From: Acidobacteriota bacterium
GTDB taxonomy: Bacteria > Acidobacteriota > Thermoanaerobaculia > Multivoradales > JAGPDF01
Assembly (NCBI GenBank): GCA_012521815.1
Contig: JAAYLR010000076.1
Location: 1-37,432 of the forward strand
Reading direction: 5' to 3'
Length of the DNA: 37,432 bases
Each line of letters starts with the position of its first letter. Position 1 is the first letter of the stretch. This document shows positions 3,322 through 13,610 of the stretch, piece by piece. A program made the translations under genes and the position numbers. Under the pieces are notes generated by a model. That model saw nothing but the letters and a program-made list of their open reading frames with translations. It made no database searches and was not told where the DNA came from.

Positions 3322-3348
3322 GAGCCGGCGCGGGGGCGCCGCCGGCTC
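3322..3348. terminator. Hairpin between convergent regulator and cytochrome genes
   Basis: A 9-bp perfect stem (GAGCCGGCG at 3322-3330 with CGCCGGCTC at 3340-3348) closes a 9-base loop. It lies between two converging genes and overlaps the stop codon of the cytochrome gene, so it could serve both strands. It has no U-run. Confidence 0.45.
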
Positions 3349-4753
3349 AGGGGTTGAGGGTCCTGAGGATCTCGGGGTCTTCCTCTTCCATCGCGAGCAG
3401 GCTGTGGCAGGTGTCGCAGTCCTGCGAGATCACCCGCGAGCCGTCGGCGGTCGCGTGGAGGTCGTCGTGGCAGCGGAAGCAGCCCGGCGACGCCTCGTGG
3501 CCGATGTGGTTCGGGTAGGTTCCCCAGGTGACGTTCATCGCCGGGTGGACGTTGGCCCGGTAGCCGTCCCAGATCGCCGTCGCGGCCTCGGCGATCGCCC
3601 CATCCCGCTCCGCCGCGATCTCCGGGAACTCCTCGGAGTAGAACGCCCGCAGGCCGGCGAGGATCCCCTCCCGGGCCGCCTCGTGCGAGGGGTAGTCGAG
3701 CCGCGCGAGCCGGACCCCTTCCCGCCGCACGAACGGCAGGTCGCGCGCGATCCGCCCGGCGAGGATCTCCCGGTCCACCTCGTCCTCCACGGTGTGGAAG
3801 GTGTGGCTCGGCCGGTTGTGGCAGTCCACGCAGTCCATGGTGCGCCAGCCGCTCGCCGCCGCCAGCTCGTCCCCCTCGACGCCGGGAGCGAAGAACCGGA
3901 CCGGTTCGCCATCGGGACCGTGCATCTCGACCTCGTAGATCGTCTCCCGCTTCTCGTCGGCGCGGTAGCGGATCTGGTGGTCCGGATCGACGTGCCAGTG
4001 GATGCCGTGGGAGGCCCGCCCCTGGAGGCCGCCGACCCGCAGCAGGAGCACGGTCTTCTGCTCGGTCACCTCCTCGTCGTCGCCGTACGAGGTGATCACC
4101 TTCAACCGGTCGCCCACGAACTTCTGCGGCCAGTGGCACTGCTCGCAGGTCTCGCGGGCCGGGCGCAGGTTGTGCACCGGGGTGGGGATCGGCCGCGGAT
4201 AGAGGTTCAGGTTCACCGAGATGACCTGCCAGGAGCCGGAGAGCTTCGACTTGACGAACCAGCCCGCGCCGGGACCGATGTGGCAGTCGACGCAGGCCAC
4301 GCTGGCGTGGGCGCCGCGCTGGTAGGCGGCGTACTCCGGGCTCATCACGCTGTGGCAGGTTTCGCCGCAGAAGGAGGTCGACTCCATGACCTCCATCCCC
4401 TTGTAGGTCGCCACCGCGAGCAGCAGCCCGTTGATGACGGTGAGGACGAAGACGAGCACCACCCGGTTGCGGATCTCGGCGCGGTTGAGATCGATCACCG
4501 GGAACGCCCGCTCGCCGGCGCCCGCCGCCCGGCGGCGCCGCTCGAAACGGGCTCCGAGCGGAATCAGGAGGAGCCCGAGGACGAAGAGCGCCGGGAGGAT
4601 CAGGTAGGCGATGATCCCGACGTACGGCCCTCCCTCCATCCCCACGAGCTCGAGCGCGAAGAGCGCGAGAAAGACGATCGCGGCGCAGGTGGTGAGCACG
4701 GTCCCGGCCAGGCTCAGCGGATGGCGGGTCAGGGCGGCGATGAACCCTTTCAT
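3347..4753 (-). CDS. Membrane-anchored multihaem cytochrome c, NapC/NirT-related
   Basis: This 468-residue protein probably passes electrons from the quinone pool to periplasmic acceptors. It starts with three predicted membrane helices (about residues 15-38, 44-66 and 95-115). The periplasmic part has five CXXCH haem motifs (CVDCH, CEQCH, CVDCH, CFRCH, CDTCH) and, first in order, CGETCH, which is CX3CH. The stretch after the first motif (HSVMSPEY, then CVDCHIGPGAG) matches the NapC/NirT family. NapC/NrfH proteins are about 200 residues with four haems and one anchor helix, so this is a longer, six-motif variant with extra membrane segments. The ATG is preceded by GGAGGAG. No terminal reductase or oxidase gene is adjacent, so the electron acceptor is unknown. 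Confidence 0.9.
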   Translation of the reverse strand: MKGFIAALTRHPLSLAGTVLTTCAAIVFLALFALELVGMEGGPYVGIIAYLILPALFVLGLLLIPLGARFERRRRAAGAGERAFPVIDLNRAEIRNRVVLVFVLTVINGLLLAVATYKGMEVMESTSFCGETCHSVMSPEYAAYQRGAHASVACVDCHIGPGAGWFVKSKLSGSWQVISVNLNLYPRPIPTPVHNLRPARETCEQCHWPQKFVGDRLKVITSYGDDEEVTEQKTVLLLRVGGLQGRASHGIHWHVDPDHQIRYRADEKRETIYEVEMHGPDGEPVRFFAPGVEGDELAAASGWRTMDCVDCHNRPSHTFHTVEDEVDREILAGRIARDLPFVRREGVRLARLDYPSHEAAREGILAGLRAFYSEEFPEIAAERDGAIAEAATAIWDGYRANVHPAMNVTWGTYPNHIGHEASPGCFRCHDDLHATADGSRVISQDCDTCHSLLAMEEEDPEILRTLNP

Positions 4754-5137: not shown

Positions 5138-6340
5138 TCATTCGTACCGGAGGCCGTCGGCCGGGGCGAGACGGGCCGCCCGGCGCGCCGGGAGCCAGGA
5201 GGAGAGGAGGGTGAGCCCGAGGGCGAGGGCGGCGATCGCCGCCACGTCGCCCGCTGCCGGGCGGAACGGCACCGCGCTCAGGAAGTAGATCTCGGCCACC
5301 TCCGGCGCGAAGCGGATCACCTCGAAGCGGGTCAGCAGGAAGCAGATCAGCAGCCCGGCGCCGAGCCCCAGCGCACAGCCCGCGGCGCCGAGCAGGGTGC
5401 CGGCGGCAAGCACGGCGCGCGTCAGCTCGCGGGGGGCGAGCCCGAGCGCGGCGAGCACCGACAGATCCCGCCGCCGCTCCCGCACCAGGACGACCAGGGT
5501 CGAAGCGACGTTGAACGTCGCCACGAGGACGATGAGCCCGAGCAGCAGGAAGAGCGCCATCTGCTGCAGCGCCAGCGCCGCGAACAGCTCCCGGTTCAGC
5601 TCCTTCCAGTCGATGACGTGGAAGCCGGGGCCGAGCCGCTCCGCCACCCGCACCGCCACCTCCGAGGCGCGGCCGGGGTCGGTGATCGCCATCTCCAGGC
5701 TGGTGACCGGCCGTTCGCTGAGCGCCATCACGAGCTCGCGGGAGGCGACGATCCAGGAACGGTCGAACTCGGAGAAGCCGCTCGCGAACAGCTCGGAGCA
5801 GACGAGCGAACGGAAGCGGAACCGGGGACCCGACGGCCCGATCCCGAGGGCCGTGAGGCGCACCGGCTCGCCGGCCGCGATCCCCAGCCGGGCGGCGAGC
5901 TCCGCCCCGCAGCGGGCCCCGGCGACCCCGTCCCGGGAGGCGAGCGCTCCGGCGCTCGCGGCGAGCAGCCCCGGCCCATCCGGCTCGACGCCGCGGAGGG
6001 TGACCTCCACCTCCCGGCCCGCGCTCGAGGTCACGATCCCCTGCCCGTAGACCACCTGCTCGACCGTGGTCACCTCGGGGATCCCGGCGAGCCGCTCGAG
6101 GGCTGCCGCCACGTCGGCGTCGCCGCCCGGATAGGCGATCACCGCCGCGTTGCCGCCGACGATCTTCCGCTGCAGGTCCCGCCGGTAGCCGGTGAGCAGC
6201 CCCATCGCCACCACGAGCGCCGTCACCCCGAGCGCGGTGGCGAGCAGCGCCGTGCGGGCCGTGGCTCCGAGCAGCCGCCCCCGGCGCCGGCCGGCCACCA
6301 GCCGCCAGGCGATCTCCCAGAGCAGCGGGCGGGTGGTCAT
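5138..6340 (-). CDS. LolC/LolE-type ABC transporter permease (FtsX family)
   Basis: The protein has 400 residues with the layout of the LolC/E/MacB-like permeases: an N-terminal membrane helix (about residues 28-50), a large periplasmic domain (about 51-255), then three C-terminal helices (about 258-285, 315-338 and 366-386) forming the FtsX domain, ending ARRAARLAPADGLRYE. LolCDE extracts lipoproteins from the inner membrane for delivery to LolA. The ATG at 6340 overlaps the TGA of the carA homologue (ATGA, 6337-6340), indicating translational coupling. No LolD-type ATPase gene is visible, so the ATPase must be encoded elsewhere. Its role could be lipoprotein release or another FtsX-type function. 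Confidence 0.82.
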   Translation of the reverse strand: MTTRPLLWEIAWRLVAGRRRGRLLGATARTALLATALGVTALVVAMGLLTGYRRDLQRKIVGGNAAVIAYPGGDADVAAALERLAGIPEVTTVEQVVYGQGIVTSSAGREVEVTLRGVEPDGPGLLAASAGALASRDGVAGARCGAELAARLGIAAGEPVRLTALGIGPSGPRFRFRSLVCSELFASGFSEFDRSWIVASRELVMALSERPVTSLEMAITDPGRASEVAVRVAERLGPGFHVIDWKELNRELFAALALQQMALFLLLGLIVLVATFNVASTLVVLVRERRRDLSVLAALGLAPRELTRAVLAAGTLLGAAGCALGLGAGLLICFLLTRFEVIRFAPEVAEIYFLSAVPFRPAAGDVAAIAALALGLTLLSSWLPARRAARLAPADGLRYE

Positions 6341-7458
6341 GCCCGGCCGCTCGCGCCGCGCTCCGGCAGGGCGGCAAGGAAGCGGCCGAAGAGGCCGCCC
6401 GCGGGGTGCGGCCCGAACGCCACCCCCGGCTGGTACTGGATGGCGAAGACGGGGCGTCCGGTCACCATGAACCCCTCGACGCTCCCGTCGTTGAGGTTCA
6501 CCTCCACCACCTCGCAGCCCGCCGGCAGCGACTCCGGAACGAGCGCGAAGGCGTGGTTCTGGCTGGTGATCGCCACCCGGCGCGCGAGGCGATCGAAGAC
6601 CGGCTGGTTCGCGCCGTGGTGGCCGCCCCCGAGCCGGAAGCCGCGGGCGCCGAGGGCGAGGCCGAGGAGCAGGTGCCCGAGACCGATGCCGAAGAGCGGC
6701 GTGCCGCTCGCGAGCAGCTCGCGCACCGTCTCCACGCTCGCGGCGAGCGGCGCCGGATCGCCGGGGCCTTGGGAGAGCACGATGCCGTCGGCGCCGAGCG
6801 CGAGCGCCTCCCGGGCCGGCGTCAGGGCGGGCAGGAGCACGAGCTCCGCGCCCCGTTCGGCGAAGGCGCGGAGAGTCGAGCGGGCGACCCCGAAGTCGTA
6901 GAGCGCGAGCCGCCAGCGCGGACCGTCCGGCGTGGCCGCCGGCCACTGGCCCGCACGACGGCAGCCGGCCTCCAGGGCGGGTGCCTCCCCGGTCGCGGAC
7001 GGCAGGTCGCGCACCTCGGCACGCAGCGCCGCGGCGTCGCTCCGCTCGGTGGTGAGCACGCCCCGCATCTCCCCATGGCCGCGCAGCCGCCGCACGACCG
7101 CGCGGATGTCGAGGCCTTCGACCGCGGGCACGCGGTGCGCGCGCAGGTAGCCGCGCAGCCCGCCCTCGGCGGCGCGGTTGGCGGGCTCCGGGGTGAACTG
7201 CCGGGCCACGACCCCCGCGGCGCGGGGCCGGTCCGACTCGGCCCAGCTCGCGCTCACTCCGTAGTTGCCGAGGTGCGGCTGGGTCATCACCACGATCTGC
7301 CCGGCGGTGGCGGGGTCGGTGAGGATCTCCTGATAGCCGCTCATCGCGGTATGGAAGACGACCTCGCCGAAGCGGGTACCGGGCGCCACGGCTCGCGCCG
7401 GGAAGACCGATCCGTCCGCGAGCACGAGGAGGGCGTCGTGGGGGGGAGCCGGGAGCAT
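6337..7458 (-). CDS. CarA-like protein (carbamoyl-phosphate synthase small subunit fold) lacking the glutaminase triad
   Basis: The 373 residues match CarA along their whole length: the N-terminal domain contains TAMSGYQEILTDPATAGQIV and PHLGNYGV, and the C-terminal class I glutamine amidotransferase domain contains LSQGPGDP, GGHHGANQPV and ITSQNHAFAL. CarA normally hydrolyses glutamine and feeds ammonia to CarB. Here the nucleophile motif GICLGHQ reads GIGLGHL, with Gly at residue 259. The HPE motif reads QPG, with Gln343 and Gly345. E. coli Cys269, His353 and Glu355 have the same spacing (84 and 86 residues), so all three catalytic residues appear replaced while the fold motifs are kept. 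No carB is adjacent, and the gene is coupled to a LolC-type permease. It may be an inactive subunit for an ammonia-using synthetase or a repurposed scaffold. Confidence 0.85.
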   Translation of the reverse strand: MLPAPPHDALLVLADGSVFPARAVAPGTRFGEVVFHTAMSGYQEILTDPATAGQIVVMTQPHLGNYGVSASWAESDRPRAAGVVARQFTPEPANRAAEGGLRGYLRAHRVPAVEGLDIRAVVRRLRGHGEMRGVLTTERSDAAALRAEVRDLPSATGEAPALEAGCRRAGQWPAATPDGPRWRLALYDFGVARSTLRAFAERGAELVLLPALTPAREALALGADGIVLSQGPGDPAPLAASVETVRELLASGTPLFGIGLGHLLLGLALGARGFRLGGGHHGANQPVFDRLARRVAITSQNHAFALVPESLPAGCEVVEVNLNDGSVEGFMVTGRPVFAIQYQPGVAFGPHPAGGLFGRFLAALPERGASGRA

Positions 7459-8709: not shown

Positions 8710-9113
8710 GAGGGGACCGGCGCCTCGGAGAGCTCGAGGAGCACGCCGCCGGTGCTCTTCGGGTGGACGAACTGGACCCAGCAGCCGCCGGCGCCGCGGG
8801 TCGGCGCCGGACGGAGCATCTGCACCCCGCCCTCGCGCAGCGTCGCGTCGGCGGCGCGCACGTCGTCGGCGGCGAGGCAGAGGTGATGGATCCCCGGGCC
8901 GCGCTTCTCGAGGAACTTGGCGATCGGCGACTCCGGCGTGGTCGGCTCGAGCAGCTCGATGAGGCTCTCCCCGCAGGGGATCATCGCCACCCGCACCCCC
9001 TCCTGAGGCACCTCCTCGATCTCCCGGATGGCGAGCCCCAGCAGCTCGTAGAAGCCGCGGGCCTCTTCGATCGAGCGCACCGCGATGCCGATGTGGTCGA
9101 TCTTCCCGATCAT
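8706..9113 (-). CDS. mce: Methylmalonyl-CoA epimerase
   Basis: This enzyme interconverts (2R)- and (2S)-methylmalonyl-CoA in propionate and odd-chain or branched-chain acyl-CoA metabolism. The 135 residues form the two-module vicinal-oxygen-chelate fold. Expected metal ligands are visible: His7 (DHIGIAV), the GIHHLCL His and Glu in the final VLLELSE. The family motif FVHPKSTGGVLLEL is present. The ATG at 9113 overlaps the meaB stop (ATGA) and has GGAGG upstream within meaB. The mutase itself is not in the window. Confidence 0.93.
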   Translation of the reverse strand: MIGKIDHIGIAVRSIEEARGFYELLGLAIREIEEVPQEGVRVAMIPCGESLIELLEPTTPESPIAKFLEKRGPGIHHLCLAADDVRAADATLREGGVQMLRPAPTRGAGGCWVQFVHPKSTGGVLLELSEAPVPS

Positions 9114-10099
9114 CTCTCCTCCCTCCGGCCGTCCTGCGGCCCGTTCCGTTCGTTGCGCACCACGTCGGCGAAGAGCCGGTTCGCGAGCGAGTACGGATCC
9201 TCGCCCGCCGCGAAGCCGGCGGCGACCGTCGCGTCGAGCCCCGCCTCGCTGCGGGCCGCCGCGAGCACCCGCTCCTTGAGGAGCGTCTCGACCCGCAGCC
9301 GCAGCTGACCGAGGCGCCGCTCGCGCAGCGCTCCCGAGCTCTCGAGGTAGTCGCGATGGCGCAGCACCGCCGCGAGCAGCTCGGCGATCCCCTCGCCGCG
9401 GCTCGCCACCGTGCGCAGGATCGGCGGGAGCCACGCCGGATGCTCGCCCGCGAGCGCCAGCATCATCTCCAGATCCCGCACCGCACGCTCCGCGCCGTCG
9501 CGATCGGCCTTGTTGATCACGAACAGGTCGGCGATCTCGAGGATCCCGGCCTTGATCGCCTGGATGTCGTCGCCGAGCCCCGGCACCGTGACCACGATCA
9601 CCGTGTCCACGGTCCGCACCACGTCGACCTCGTCCTGCCCCACCCCGACCGTCTCCACGAGGATCCAGTCGAAGCCCGCGGCGTCGAGCAGATCGACGCC
9701 GTCGCGGGTCGAGCGCGAGAGCCCGCCGAGGGCGCCGCGGGTCGCCAGCGAGCGGATGAAGACGCCGGGATCGGTGGCGAGCGCCTGCATCCGGATCCGG
9801 TCGCCGAGGAGCGCCCCCCCGGAGAACGGGCTCGAGGGATCGACGCAGAGCGCGCCGACCGTCTCGCCGCGCGCCCGGCAGGCCTGCGCGAGGCGATCCA
9901 CGAGCGTGCTCTTCCCGGCGCCCGGCGGGCCGGTGATCCCCACCACCCGGGCCCGCCCCGAGCGGCCGTGGAGCCGCTGCACGAGCTCGGCCGCCGGCTC
10001 CCCGCCGGCCTCCAGCACCGAGAGGCCGCGCGCCACCGCCCGCGGCTGGCGCGCGAGGATCCCCGGCAGCAGGGCGTCGAGATCCGGGCGGGTGCTCAT
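9110..10099 (-). CDS. meaB: MeaB/ArgK-type GTPase, methylmalonyl-CoA mutase chaperone
   Basis: This 329-residue G3E GTPase protects and reactivates adenosylcobalamin-dependent methylmalonyl-CoA mutase. Visible motifs are the Walker [16 protein letters not shown], the switch region [19 protein letters not shown], the ETVGVGQ motif, and the NKAD guanine-specificity motif. The ATG at 10099 overlaps the acyl-CoA dehydrogenase stop codon (ATGA). Gene order dehydrogenase-meaB-epimerase points to breakdown of branched-chain amino acids or odd-chain fatty acids through propionyl-CoA. Confidence 0.94.
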
Positions 10100-11247
10100 G
10101 CCGTCTCGGCCATCAGCTGGCGCGCGATGACGAGCCGCTGGATCTCGCTCGTCCCCTCGCCGATCGTGCAGATCTTCGCGTCGCGGAAGAACTTCTCGGC
10201 GCGGTAATCCTTGATCAGGCCGTAGCCGCCGTGGATCTGCACCCCGCGCTCCGCGCAGTAGACCGCGGTCTCGCCGGTGAGCAGCTTCGCCTCCGCGGCG
10301 AGCCGCGTGACCTTCCCCGTCCGGTCCATCTCCGCCGCGGCCGCGAAGGTGAGCGCCTCGGCGGCGGCGATCCGCGTCGCCATCTCGGCGAGCGTGAAGC
10401 GGACCGCCTGGAAGTCGGCGATCGGCCGTCCGAACTGCTCCCGCTCCCGGGCGTAGGCGAGCGCCGTCTCGTAGGCGCCGATCGCGGTGCCGAGCCCGAG
10501 CGCGGCGATCGAGATCCGCCCGCCGTCGAGGACCGCGAGCGCCTGCTTGAACCCCTCGCCGCGCCGTCCGAGGAGGTTCTCGTCGGGCAGGAAGCAGTCC
10601 TCGAAGATCACCTCGGCGGTGTCCGAGGCGCGGATCCCGAGCTTGTTCTCCTTCTTGCCGGTGCGCAGCCCCGGGGTGCCGCGGTCGACGGCGAACGCCG
10701 ACATGTGGCGCCCGCGCGGGGCGTCGGGGTCGGTGACCGCCATCACCACGACCACGTCGCCCACCGAGCCGTGGGTGCAGAAGACCTTCGAACCGTTGAG
10801 CCGCCAGCCGTCCGGCACCTTCTCGGCCCGGGTCCGGCCCGCGGCCGCGTCGGAGCCGGCGCCGGCCTCGGTGAGGCCCCAGGCGCCGATCTTCTCCCCC
10901 CGCGCGAGCGGCGTCACCCAGCGGCGCCGCTGCTCGGCGTTGCCGAACTTGAAGATGTGGTTGGTGCAGAGCGAGTTGTGGGCGGCGACCGAGATCCCCA
11001 CCGCGGGATCGACCTTCGAGAGCTCGGTGACGATCAGCACGTAGTCGACATAGCCGAGACCGGCGCCGCCGAGCTCCTCGGGGAAGATGACCCCCAGGAA
11101 GCCGAGCTCGCCGGCCTTGCGCATCACCTCGCGGGGAAAGCGCTGCGCCTCGTCGGTCTCCTCGACGATCGGGTCCACCTCGCGCCGGGCGAAGGCCCGG
11201 GCGGTCTCCTGCACGGCGAGCTGCTCGGATGTGAGGGTGAATTCCAA
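10096..11247 (-). CDS. Acyl-CoA dehydrogenase (short/branched-chain type)
   Basis: This 383-residue flavoenzyme oxidises acyl-CoA to enoyl-CoA and passes electrons to electron-transfer flavoprotein. It shows the FAD-binding [10 protein letters not shown] motif, the KVFCTHG and [15 protein letters not shown] regions, the [11 protein letters not shown] signature and the catalytic Glu in [10 protein letters not shown]. The start is a TTG at 11247, chosen because GGAGG lies at good spacing upstream and the resulting N-terminus ([13 protein letters not shown]) is normal for the family; translation from any later codon would cut the first helix. First gene of a four-gene overlapping operon. The exact substrate (butyryl, isobutyryl or methylbutyryl-CoA) cannot be read from the sequence. 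Confidence 0.93.
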
Positions 11248-11281
11248 GTTCGATTCCTCCGGTGCGGCGGCGAACCCTCGA

Positions 11282-11310
11282 ATCGTACCCGAGGGTCCGG
11301 AGGGCGGCAA
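11282..11310 (-). promoter_or_regulatory. Promoter for the acyl-CoA dehydrogenase/meaB operon
   Basis: On the minus strand TTGCCG (11310-11305) is separated by 17 bases from TACGAT (11287-11282). It predicts a leader of about 27-28 bases containing the GGAGG used by the TTG start at 11247. Confidence 0.5.
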
Positions 11311-11321
11311 ACGCGGGCGGC

Positions 11322-13610
11322 TCAGCCCTTCCCCGCTCCCGCCGGCCGGGCCGGAGGCCAGCGCTCGACGGTGATGCCGCGGTAGTAGTGGCGCAGGATC
11401 GTCCGGTAGTCGTGCCCCCGGCGCGCCATCCCGAACGAGCCGACCTGACAGAGCCCGACCCCGTGCCCCCAGCCGCGGCCGCTGAACTGCCAGCCCGCCG
11501 GGCGATCGTCGGGGGTGAGGCGGCGGGCGGTGAACCAGGTGTCGGGCAGGTCGAACGTCCAGCGCACCGCGAGCCCGTCGACCTCGACCGTCTCGCCGCC
11601 CGCGCCGTGCAGTCGCAGCTTCCCCACCCGGCCGGAGACACCCCGGTCGAGCAGCTCGAACCGCTCCAGCCGGAAGCCGGGGTAGCGGACGCGCACCAGC
11701 CGGGCGAGCTCCTCGTCGCTGCGGAAGCGCCGCCACGAGGCGCGGGAGCTCGTCCGGTCGTTGGCGGCGCCGTCCGGATCGACCTGGTGGCGCACCGCGA
11801 GCAGCTTTCCGCCCTCGAGGTAGAGCTGCATCCGGTCGCCGGGCAGGAGCGCGAGCGGTCCCGAGATCGTGCCGAGCCCGGCGTCGCGGAAGGTCGCCAG
11901 CCTGCCGGGGAGCGCGAACGTCCGATCCTCGCCCTCGAGCCGCAGCCGCAGGCTCCCGTCGCCCAGGCTGAGCAGCGTGCCGTCGAGCGCCTCGACGACG
12001 CGCAGGTAGAGCGCGAGCCGCAGGAGCAGCTCCTCCTGCTCGTCCGGTCCGAGGAGCCGCTCCCCGTCGGCGGCGAGCAGACCGCTCTTGACGAGATAGG
12101 CCGCGAGCGCGAGCTCGCCCGCCTCCCAGTCGGCGGGCGGGTTGGCGAGCAGGTAGGCCACGTCCTCGCGCGGCAGGAAGAGGCGGGCGTCGGCCGCGAG
12201 GTCGAAGAGCGAACCGAGGAAGCGGGTCACCTCGCGCCGCGCGAGCGAGCCGAGGCGGTCGGTGCCCACCGCGAGCCCGGCGCGGGTGGCGAGCGCCCGC
12301 AGGCGGGCCTCGAGCACCGCGGCACCCGACGCTCCCGGCGGCGGCGGGAGCAGCCGCGTCGTCAGCCCGCGGGGGAAGGTCACCCCGGAGGGGAGATCGC
12401 CGGCCAGCCGCGAGACGCCGCCCTCCATGCACGGCACGCCGCGCAGGTAGGCGGCGCGCTTGAGCGGGAAGACGACCTCGACGTTCTCCGTGTGGCCGCC
12501 GCAGGTCGAGCTGTAGAGGGCGTCGATCGGCCGCCCTTCGTAGAGCGCCACCTCGCCGGCGGTCGCCGCCACCGCGCGGTCGGAGAGCGGATGCTCGTCC
12601 TCCACCCCGCCGTAGACCTGACAGCGGGGCGTCGCGCAGATGTCGTACCCCTCGTCGCGGAACTCGCCGAGGTTGGCCACCGCGTATGTCCGCGCCGCCA
12701 CCGCCTGCGCCTTGAGCGCTTCGAGCTCGTCGAAGACCGCCGGCCCCATCTCGCGCGGCACCACGCCGCGCAGGTACTGCTCGACCGGCAGCTCGTTGAT
12801 GACGTTGAGCAGCCCGCGCTCGTTGAGGAAGATCTCGATCCGGCCCCGGTAGCGGCGCCCCTCGACGCGGATCGCCCCGTCGCCGGCGGCGTCGAAGGCG
12901 AGCGTGCGGCCCGGGACCGTCCAGCTCCGCCCGCGCTGCGTGACCCGCAGCGCCGGCTCGCGCAGCCCGCCCCCCTCGGCCACCACCCAGGCGCCGGTCA
13001 GCCCGCGCTGGGCGAGGCGGCGCCCCTCCCGCTCCGCCGCCTCGCGGGAGGCGTACCGCCCCACCCGGACCCGGTAGAGATCGATCCGGGGGTCGAAGCG
13101 GGCGTCGGCCGGCGCCTCGGCGATCGCGCCCGCCCGCTCGGCGAGCCCGCGGGCCTGCACCTCGTCCTTGAGCGCGCCGACCTGGAGCCGGAAGTACGCC
13201 GTCCCCACCGCCGCCGGCGCCGGCTCGACCCGCACCGGCGCCATCGCCGCGAGCGGCGTGCCGTCGCCGAGCACCGTGCTCACCTCGCCGTCGCAGCAGG
13301 GAACGGTGACCGTTGACAGGTCGGTGGCGAGGCCGACCCGGATCTTCAGTTCCCCGGCCGGCGGCAATGCAGGCTCTTGCGCGAACGGCTCGGCGACCAC
13401 GGCCGGCGGCGGCGCGGGGGCCGGCCCGGGGGCCGGCGGCGGCGGCGCGGGCGTCGCCACGGGGGTGGCGGCGGGCAGCGGCGCCGGCGGCTCGACGCGC
13501 GGAGCGCGCCCGAACCGCGCGCAGGCGAGCGCGAGCAGCAGCCCGGCCGCCAGCACGGCGAGCCGCCGCAGGCCGGAGTCAGATCCGGTGCTGCTGGAGC
13601 CTGATCTCAC
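11322..13610 (-). CDS. SpoIID/LytB-domain protein with N-terminal SPOR domain
   Basis: The 762-residue envelope protein begins with a hydrophobic export segment (about residues 15-32, ending LLALACARF; a weak lipobox) and a Pro/Ala-rich linker. Next come a SPOR domain (about 130-210; [18 protein letters not shown] ... [16 protein letters not shown]), which binds glycan strands stripped of peptides, and a long SpoIID domain (from about 240), which in SpoIID cleaves such strands. The GVVPREMG motif contains the expected catalytic Glu, and the family's C-terminal signature [19 protein letters not shown] is intact. A stretch of about 150 residues is inserted between the two conserved SpoIID parts. 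The GTG start at 13610 overlaps the upstream ATPase gene by 32 bases. The likely role is peptidoglycan remodelling, not sporulation. Confidence 0.88.

Follow-up and report, generated by a model that had tools for sequence, protein, structure and literature searches.

Carbamoyl phosphate synthetase (CPS), whose small subunit CarA is conserved widely among bacteria, supplies both the pyrimidine and the arginine pathway. For every bacterial CPS, glutamine is regarded as the nitrogen source used physiologically, and two CarA residues, Cys269 and His353, are essential (PMC6245113). According to the account cited there (Rubino 1987, in PMC6245113), the large subunit of Escherichia coli alone is able, when ammonia is high, to form carbamoyl phosphate from NH3 in vivo; the E. 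coli enzyme requires very high, probably unphysiological, ammonia concentrations (PMC6245113). E. coli CPS variants in which the glutamine tunnel has been blocked show normal activity with external ammonia, and ammonia-driven synthesis is established for variants whose tunnel is blocked or perforated (PMC4655335). Human CPS1 uses ammonia and has kept an inactive glutaminase-like domain in which the Cys is replaced by Ser, and it appears to take up ammonia by an alternative path (PMC4655335). Carbamoyl phosphate is also made with no class I glutaminase acting, and without a CarA scaffold, by the mini-CPS of Methanobrevibacter smithii and the carbamate kinase of Pyrococcus (PMC6022934). We found no description of a glutaminase-dead bacterial CarA in the open-access literature, which does not prove its absence.

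The window (the whole stretch of DNA analysed, 37,432 nucleotides from an Acidobacteriota genome) contains a carA homologue with a permease gene immediately downstream:

6337 to 7458, minus strand (7458 to 6337): carA homologue (P0002, 373 amino acids), its glutamine site apparently lost; from translation, Pfam/NCBIfam, alignment and AlphaFold2 model
5138 to 6340, minus strand: FtsX/MacB-type permease gene, downstream of carA; from sequence and Pfam

A first-pass annotation of this DNA had called a full-length CarA with both domains in the reading frame at 6337–7458, and this is borne out, on the minus strand. The product matches the Pfam domains CPSase_sm_chain (132.8 bits, 7.7e-39) and GATase (104.2 bits, 8.6e-30). 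It also matches the full length of the TIGR01368 profile at 335 bits, above the cut-off of 307, versus ~440–450 bits for the CarAs of other family members. An AlphaFold2 model (pLDDT 91.1, pTM 0.90) has E. coli CarA as its best PDB match (TM 0.92) and matches human CPS1 at TM 0.86; the model is driven by an alignment of intact homologues, and its confidence alone is not proof that the mutated sequence folds. In the PDB, E. coli CarA is represented by 1A9X/1JDB and human CPS1 by 5DOT/5DOU. In its two domains, full length, modeled fold and synteny, and in the presence of carB and pyrB-pyrC in the genome, the locus resembles bacterial CarA as represented by TIGR01368 and the E. coli protein.

Unlike E. 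coli CarA, the protein has a glutamine site in which most residues are replaced. The alignment comprised E. coli CarA as well as 29 CarAs of the order and 17 more distantly related ones. Gly259, Gln343 and Gly345 stand where E. coli has Cys269, His353 and Glu355, with no gaps around these positions, and the Cys-His-Glu triad is present in 29/29 order-level relatives. The alignment thus agrees with the triple replacement read by the first-pass annotation, whose triad spacing of 84 and 86 residues is also correct. It had not mentioned four other glutamine-site replacements, S47A, K202A, N240Q and Q273L (E. coli numbering). The replaced codons are:

7309 to 7311, minus strand: codon 50, GCC (Ala), replacing Ser47; alignment, codons
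6883 to 6885, minus strand: codon 192, GCC (Ala), replacing Lys202 (AAG to GCC); alignment, codons
6769 to 6771, minus strand: codon 230, CAA (Gln), replacing Asn240; alignment, codons
6682 to 6684, minus strand: codon 259, GGT (Gly), replacing the Cys nucleophile (family relatives have TGC); alignment, codons
6670 to 6672, minus strand: codon 263, CTG (Leu), replacing Gln273 (CAG in relatives); alignment, codons
6430 to 6432, minus strand: codon 343, CAG (Gln), replacing the catalytic His (CAC in relatives); alignment, codons
6424 to 6426, minus strand: codon 345, GGG (Gly), replacing the catalytic Glu (GAG in relatives); alignment, codons

Seven of the eight catalytic or glutamine-binding residues are replaced, including 4/5 of the glutamine-binding set (Ser47, Lys202, Asn240, Gln273 and Asn311); Asn311 alone is kept, and Gly313 is also replaced (G313A). 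The eight positions (Cys269, His353, Glu355, Ser47, Lys202, Asn240, Gln273, Asn311) are those known from E. coli mutagenesis to be catalytic or glutamine-binding, with E. coli CarA serving as the ruler. The PDB alignment and the reported essential residues Cys269 and His353 (PMC6245113) concur with this choice. Among 118 order-invariant columns, this CarA departs from 21, versus 0–3 per relative. The departures cluster in the pocket (7/8, versus 14/110 at the other order-invariant sites, where 96/110 are kept; P = 1.6e-5, Fisher’s exact test). We considered a single sequencing error as the cause, which is ruled out by the changes TGC to GGT, CAC to CAG, GAG to GGG and AAG to GCC, among others. 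From these residues, the CarA glutaminase is predicted to be lost both in glutamine binding and in chemistry. The loss is specific to CarA, since three further class I amidotransferases encoded in this genome (TrpG-like, PyrG and gamma-glutamyl type; n = 3) retain their triads.

We searched for other CarAs without the Cys using a DNA pattern consisting of the motif with a non-Cys codon, which is blind to codons starting with T (for example, Ser TCN). Across 72 genomes of the order this genome was the sole match to the pattern, T-starting codons excepted. With the same blind spot, the search of 396 genomes of the phylum returned eight other matches, none of which is a CarA by tblastn. The first-pass annotation had proposed looking for Gly/Gln/Gly as a conserved clade, and none was found by the pattern search in either set of genomes.

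The locus resembles human CPS1 in that a glutaminase-like domain is kept though inactive (here as predicted from the residues), as well as in modeled fold, and the nitrogen donor of CPS1 is ammonia (PMC4655335). CPS1, however, is a fused, NAG-activated mitochondrial chain with a Cys-to-Ser change, whereas here the subunits are separate and bacterial, the whole triad is gone and the use of ammonia is putative. As carA and carB are unfused genes on separate contigs, CarAB here is not a CPS1, and would at most resemble one in its mode of action. Unlike the M. smithii and Pyrococcus systems, this genome combines a predicted CarA pseudoenzyme with a full-length, two-domain CarB.

The source genome is a 243-contig bin, 98.6% complete with 2.7% contamination. 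A profile search found a single carA and one full-length carB above the cut-off (TIGR01369, 1407 bits, G000:C197), answering the first-pass annotation’s question of a second intact carA and of carB. CarB retains its ATP-grasp motifs. The genome also carries pyrB followed by pyrC, both intact, and PyrB has its STRTR motif, which suggests that carbamoyl phosphate is still needed. The flanks of the window are 84–88% identical in DNA to the congener G001 (the DNA search covered 20 kb of the window), and the gene order around carA is the same as in three relatives (G002, G003 and G006). Same-genus flanks and shared gene order indicate that carA is the vertical, syntenic orthologue of the family’s carA, on the right contig. 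In G001, carB is normal; its contigs stop at window position 5749 and resume at 9220. The apparent absence of carA from this congener is therefore no sign of gene loss: the region is an assembly gap, so absence there is uninformative.

CarB is accelerated in this lineage only. Relative to outgroups from the order it carries 22 derived changes here versus 1 in G001 (P = 5.7e-6), and 40 versus 6 with a narrower outgroup, whereas the counts for PyrB (0 versus 3), PyrC (2 versus 2), a cytochrome gene (14 versus 15) and likewise the other window genes are balanced. The pairwise dN/dS of CarB (0.21) lies in the usual range (0.11–0.24 for most genes compared) and many of its changes are conservative, so selection on CarB persists. 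Among them, H776Q affects the residue equivalent to E. coli His781, immediately ahead of the K' loop (CarB at G000:C197, L105:1361-4570). Of the CarBs aligned, that of the congener included, only this one has Gln there and the rest have His; the activity of CarB may be altered as a result.

We favour, as the somewhat probable explanation, a CPS that has turned ammonia-dependent, in which CarA is kept as a folded partner of CarB or as a weakly constrained scaffold. With glutamine binding and catalysis both lost, only free ammonia would be left as a nitrogen donor for CarAB. Ammonia would be delivered directly to CarB to yield carbamoyl phosphate, while CarA, under reduced constraint, would persist as a folded partner; the CarA-CarB complex would presumably still form, with CarA still contributing to it. 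The first-pass annotation had also raised an ammonia-dependent subunit, and this part of its proposal is the outcome best supported by the sole carA, the full-length carB with its motifs, the intact pyrB-pyrC and the loss of glutamine binding together with catalysis; its argument from the undamaged frame does not stand (see below). The acceleration of CarB, the restriction of the loss to CarA, the pocket-focused replacements and the fold model also favour this reading, as does the precedent of CPS1 and of tunnel-blocked E. coli CPS. More tentatively, and rather short of probable, the locus could represent an ammonia-only, two-subunit bacterial CPS, its CarA glutamine site dismantled and its CarB adjusted, that arose recently in one lineage as an independent counterpart of the change from glutamine to ammonia dependence in the animal CPS line. 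If true, this would be a natural exception to glutamine as the donor, with a sole CarA unable to use glutamine in a genome that keeps pyrB and pyrC. It would allow tests of what CarA contributes to CarB beyond ammonia, and of how CarB adapts to taking ammonia from solution. The profile score itself calls for caution in annotation, as it places this CarA above the cut-off for the “glutamine-hydrolyzing” subunit.

Counting against the favoured reading, the dN/dS of carA and its compositional drift resemble those of a gene escaping selection. The H776Q change, through which CarB activity may be altered, and the very high ammonia requirement of the E. coli enzyme (PMC6245113) also count against it. 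Pairwise carA dN/dS values against family members are near saturation, and a three-point branch estimate was used instead. The terminal branch of carA has dN of 0.21–0.225 and dS of 0.28–0.35 (dN/dS ~0.65–0.8), versus dN/dS of roughly 0.15–0.5 on the branches of relatives, from which selection on CarA appears clearly relaxed. The combination that the first-pass annotation had set against a retained role, a replacement unique to this genome with dN/dS near 1, was found in part: the replacement is unique among the genomes compared, and dN/dS only approaches 1. Gly, Ala, Arg and Pro make up 46.1% of CarA versus 31–39% in relatives, outside the range of the order, and carA has a GC content of 76%. 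When we simulated neutral drift to the observed divergence, 36–75% of runs acquired no stop codon (mutational GC 0.75–0.95). At a higher divergence target and mutational GC of 0.9–0.95, the simulated Gly/Ala/Arg/Pro fraction reached 0.44–0.45, close to the 0.461 observed. Lack of stop codons is thus rejected as evidence of function, and with it the first-pass annotation’s claim that an undamaged frame implies a retained role.

These values, namely the high dN/dS, the drift-like composition and the sizeable chance of an open frame, fit an alternative in which carA is an early pseudogene. Carbamoyl phosphate would then come from CarB alone or be supplied in some other way, such as citrulline phosphorolysis or carbamate kinase, and the frame would remain open because stops are rare at this GC content and because carA overlaps the coupled FtsX gene. 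We consider this explanation, taken as a whole, unlikely, if a serious competitor. Uniform neutrality would not yield a pocket changed at 88% of its sites versus 13% of the other invariant sites, and no indel relative to the closest relatives was seen across more than 360 carA codons. This focus of losses on the pocket supports continued selection on the scaffold once the glutaminase was no longer needed. The genome does encode a carbamate kinase homologue (G000:C25:4571-5497; 337 bits, just under the cut-off of 358), as the pseudogene explanation would allow. Relatives whose CarA is intact commonly have a carbamate kinase too, however, at times near a carbamoyltransferase (G003:C20), so it explains nothing specific here and we rejected it as a specific replacement for CarA.

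The permease gene bears on a further alternative, that CarA has acquired a new function, for example as a regulator or partner of this FtsX/MacB-type protein. The permease ATG overlaps the carA TGA (ATGA), an arrangement that points to probable translational coupling, and the many replacements within one pocket could likewise accompany a change of function. The adjacency of carA and FtsX is old, however, being kept in relatives with intact CarA (G002, G003, G006, G009 and G017), and the pattern search of the order and phylum genomes recovered no Gly/Gln/Gly clade; we regard a new function as very improbable. Across the order the position of the permease gene beside carA is conserved, and the two are not known to be functionally linked.

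Most improbable of all is an assembly or binning artefact, with a foreign or chimeric contig here and the true carA absent from the bin: the bin is fragmented, shows some contamination and includes one faulty contig (C89, a perfect 20-kb palindrome over the stretch examined), but the congeneric flanks, the gene order shared with relatives, the multi-base codon replacements and the lack of large repeats in the window all speak against it. The C89 palindrome (G000:C89:14050-34040, L106) is an inverted repeat of two 9,994-base arms that are 100% complementary, with no spacer, and is probably an assembly artefact in the genome bin.

Two cytochrome genes touch on nitrogen metabolism. A strong cytochrome c552/NrfA-type match (458 bits) lies on the carB contig (G000:C197:11192-12799, minus strand), and a NapC/NirT-like cytochrome gene lies at window positions 3347–4753. 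NrfA is an ammonia-forming nitrite reductase, and the two genes suggest reduction of nitrite to ammonium; an ammonia-rich lifestyle would fit an ammonia-dependent CPS, though the match and the NapC/NirT-type cytochrome are only suggestive of it. Elsewhere in the window, a long minus-strand open reading frame (9110–11641) contains MeaB at residues 534–800. It shares ~320 bases with a SpoIID reading frame, and its dS relative to G001 is low, so its true start probably lies further in.
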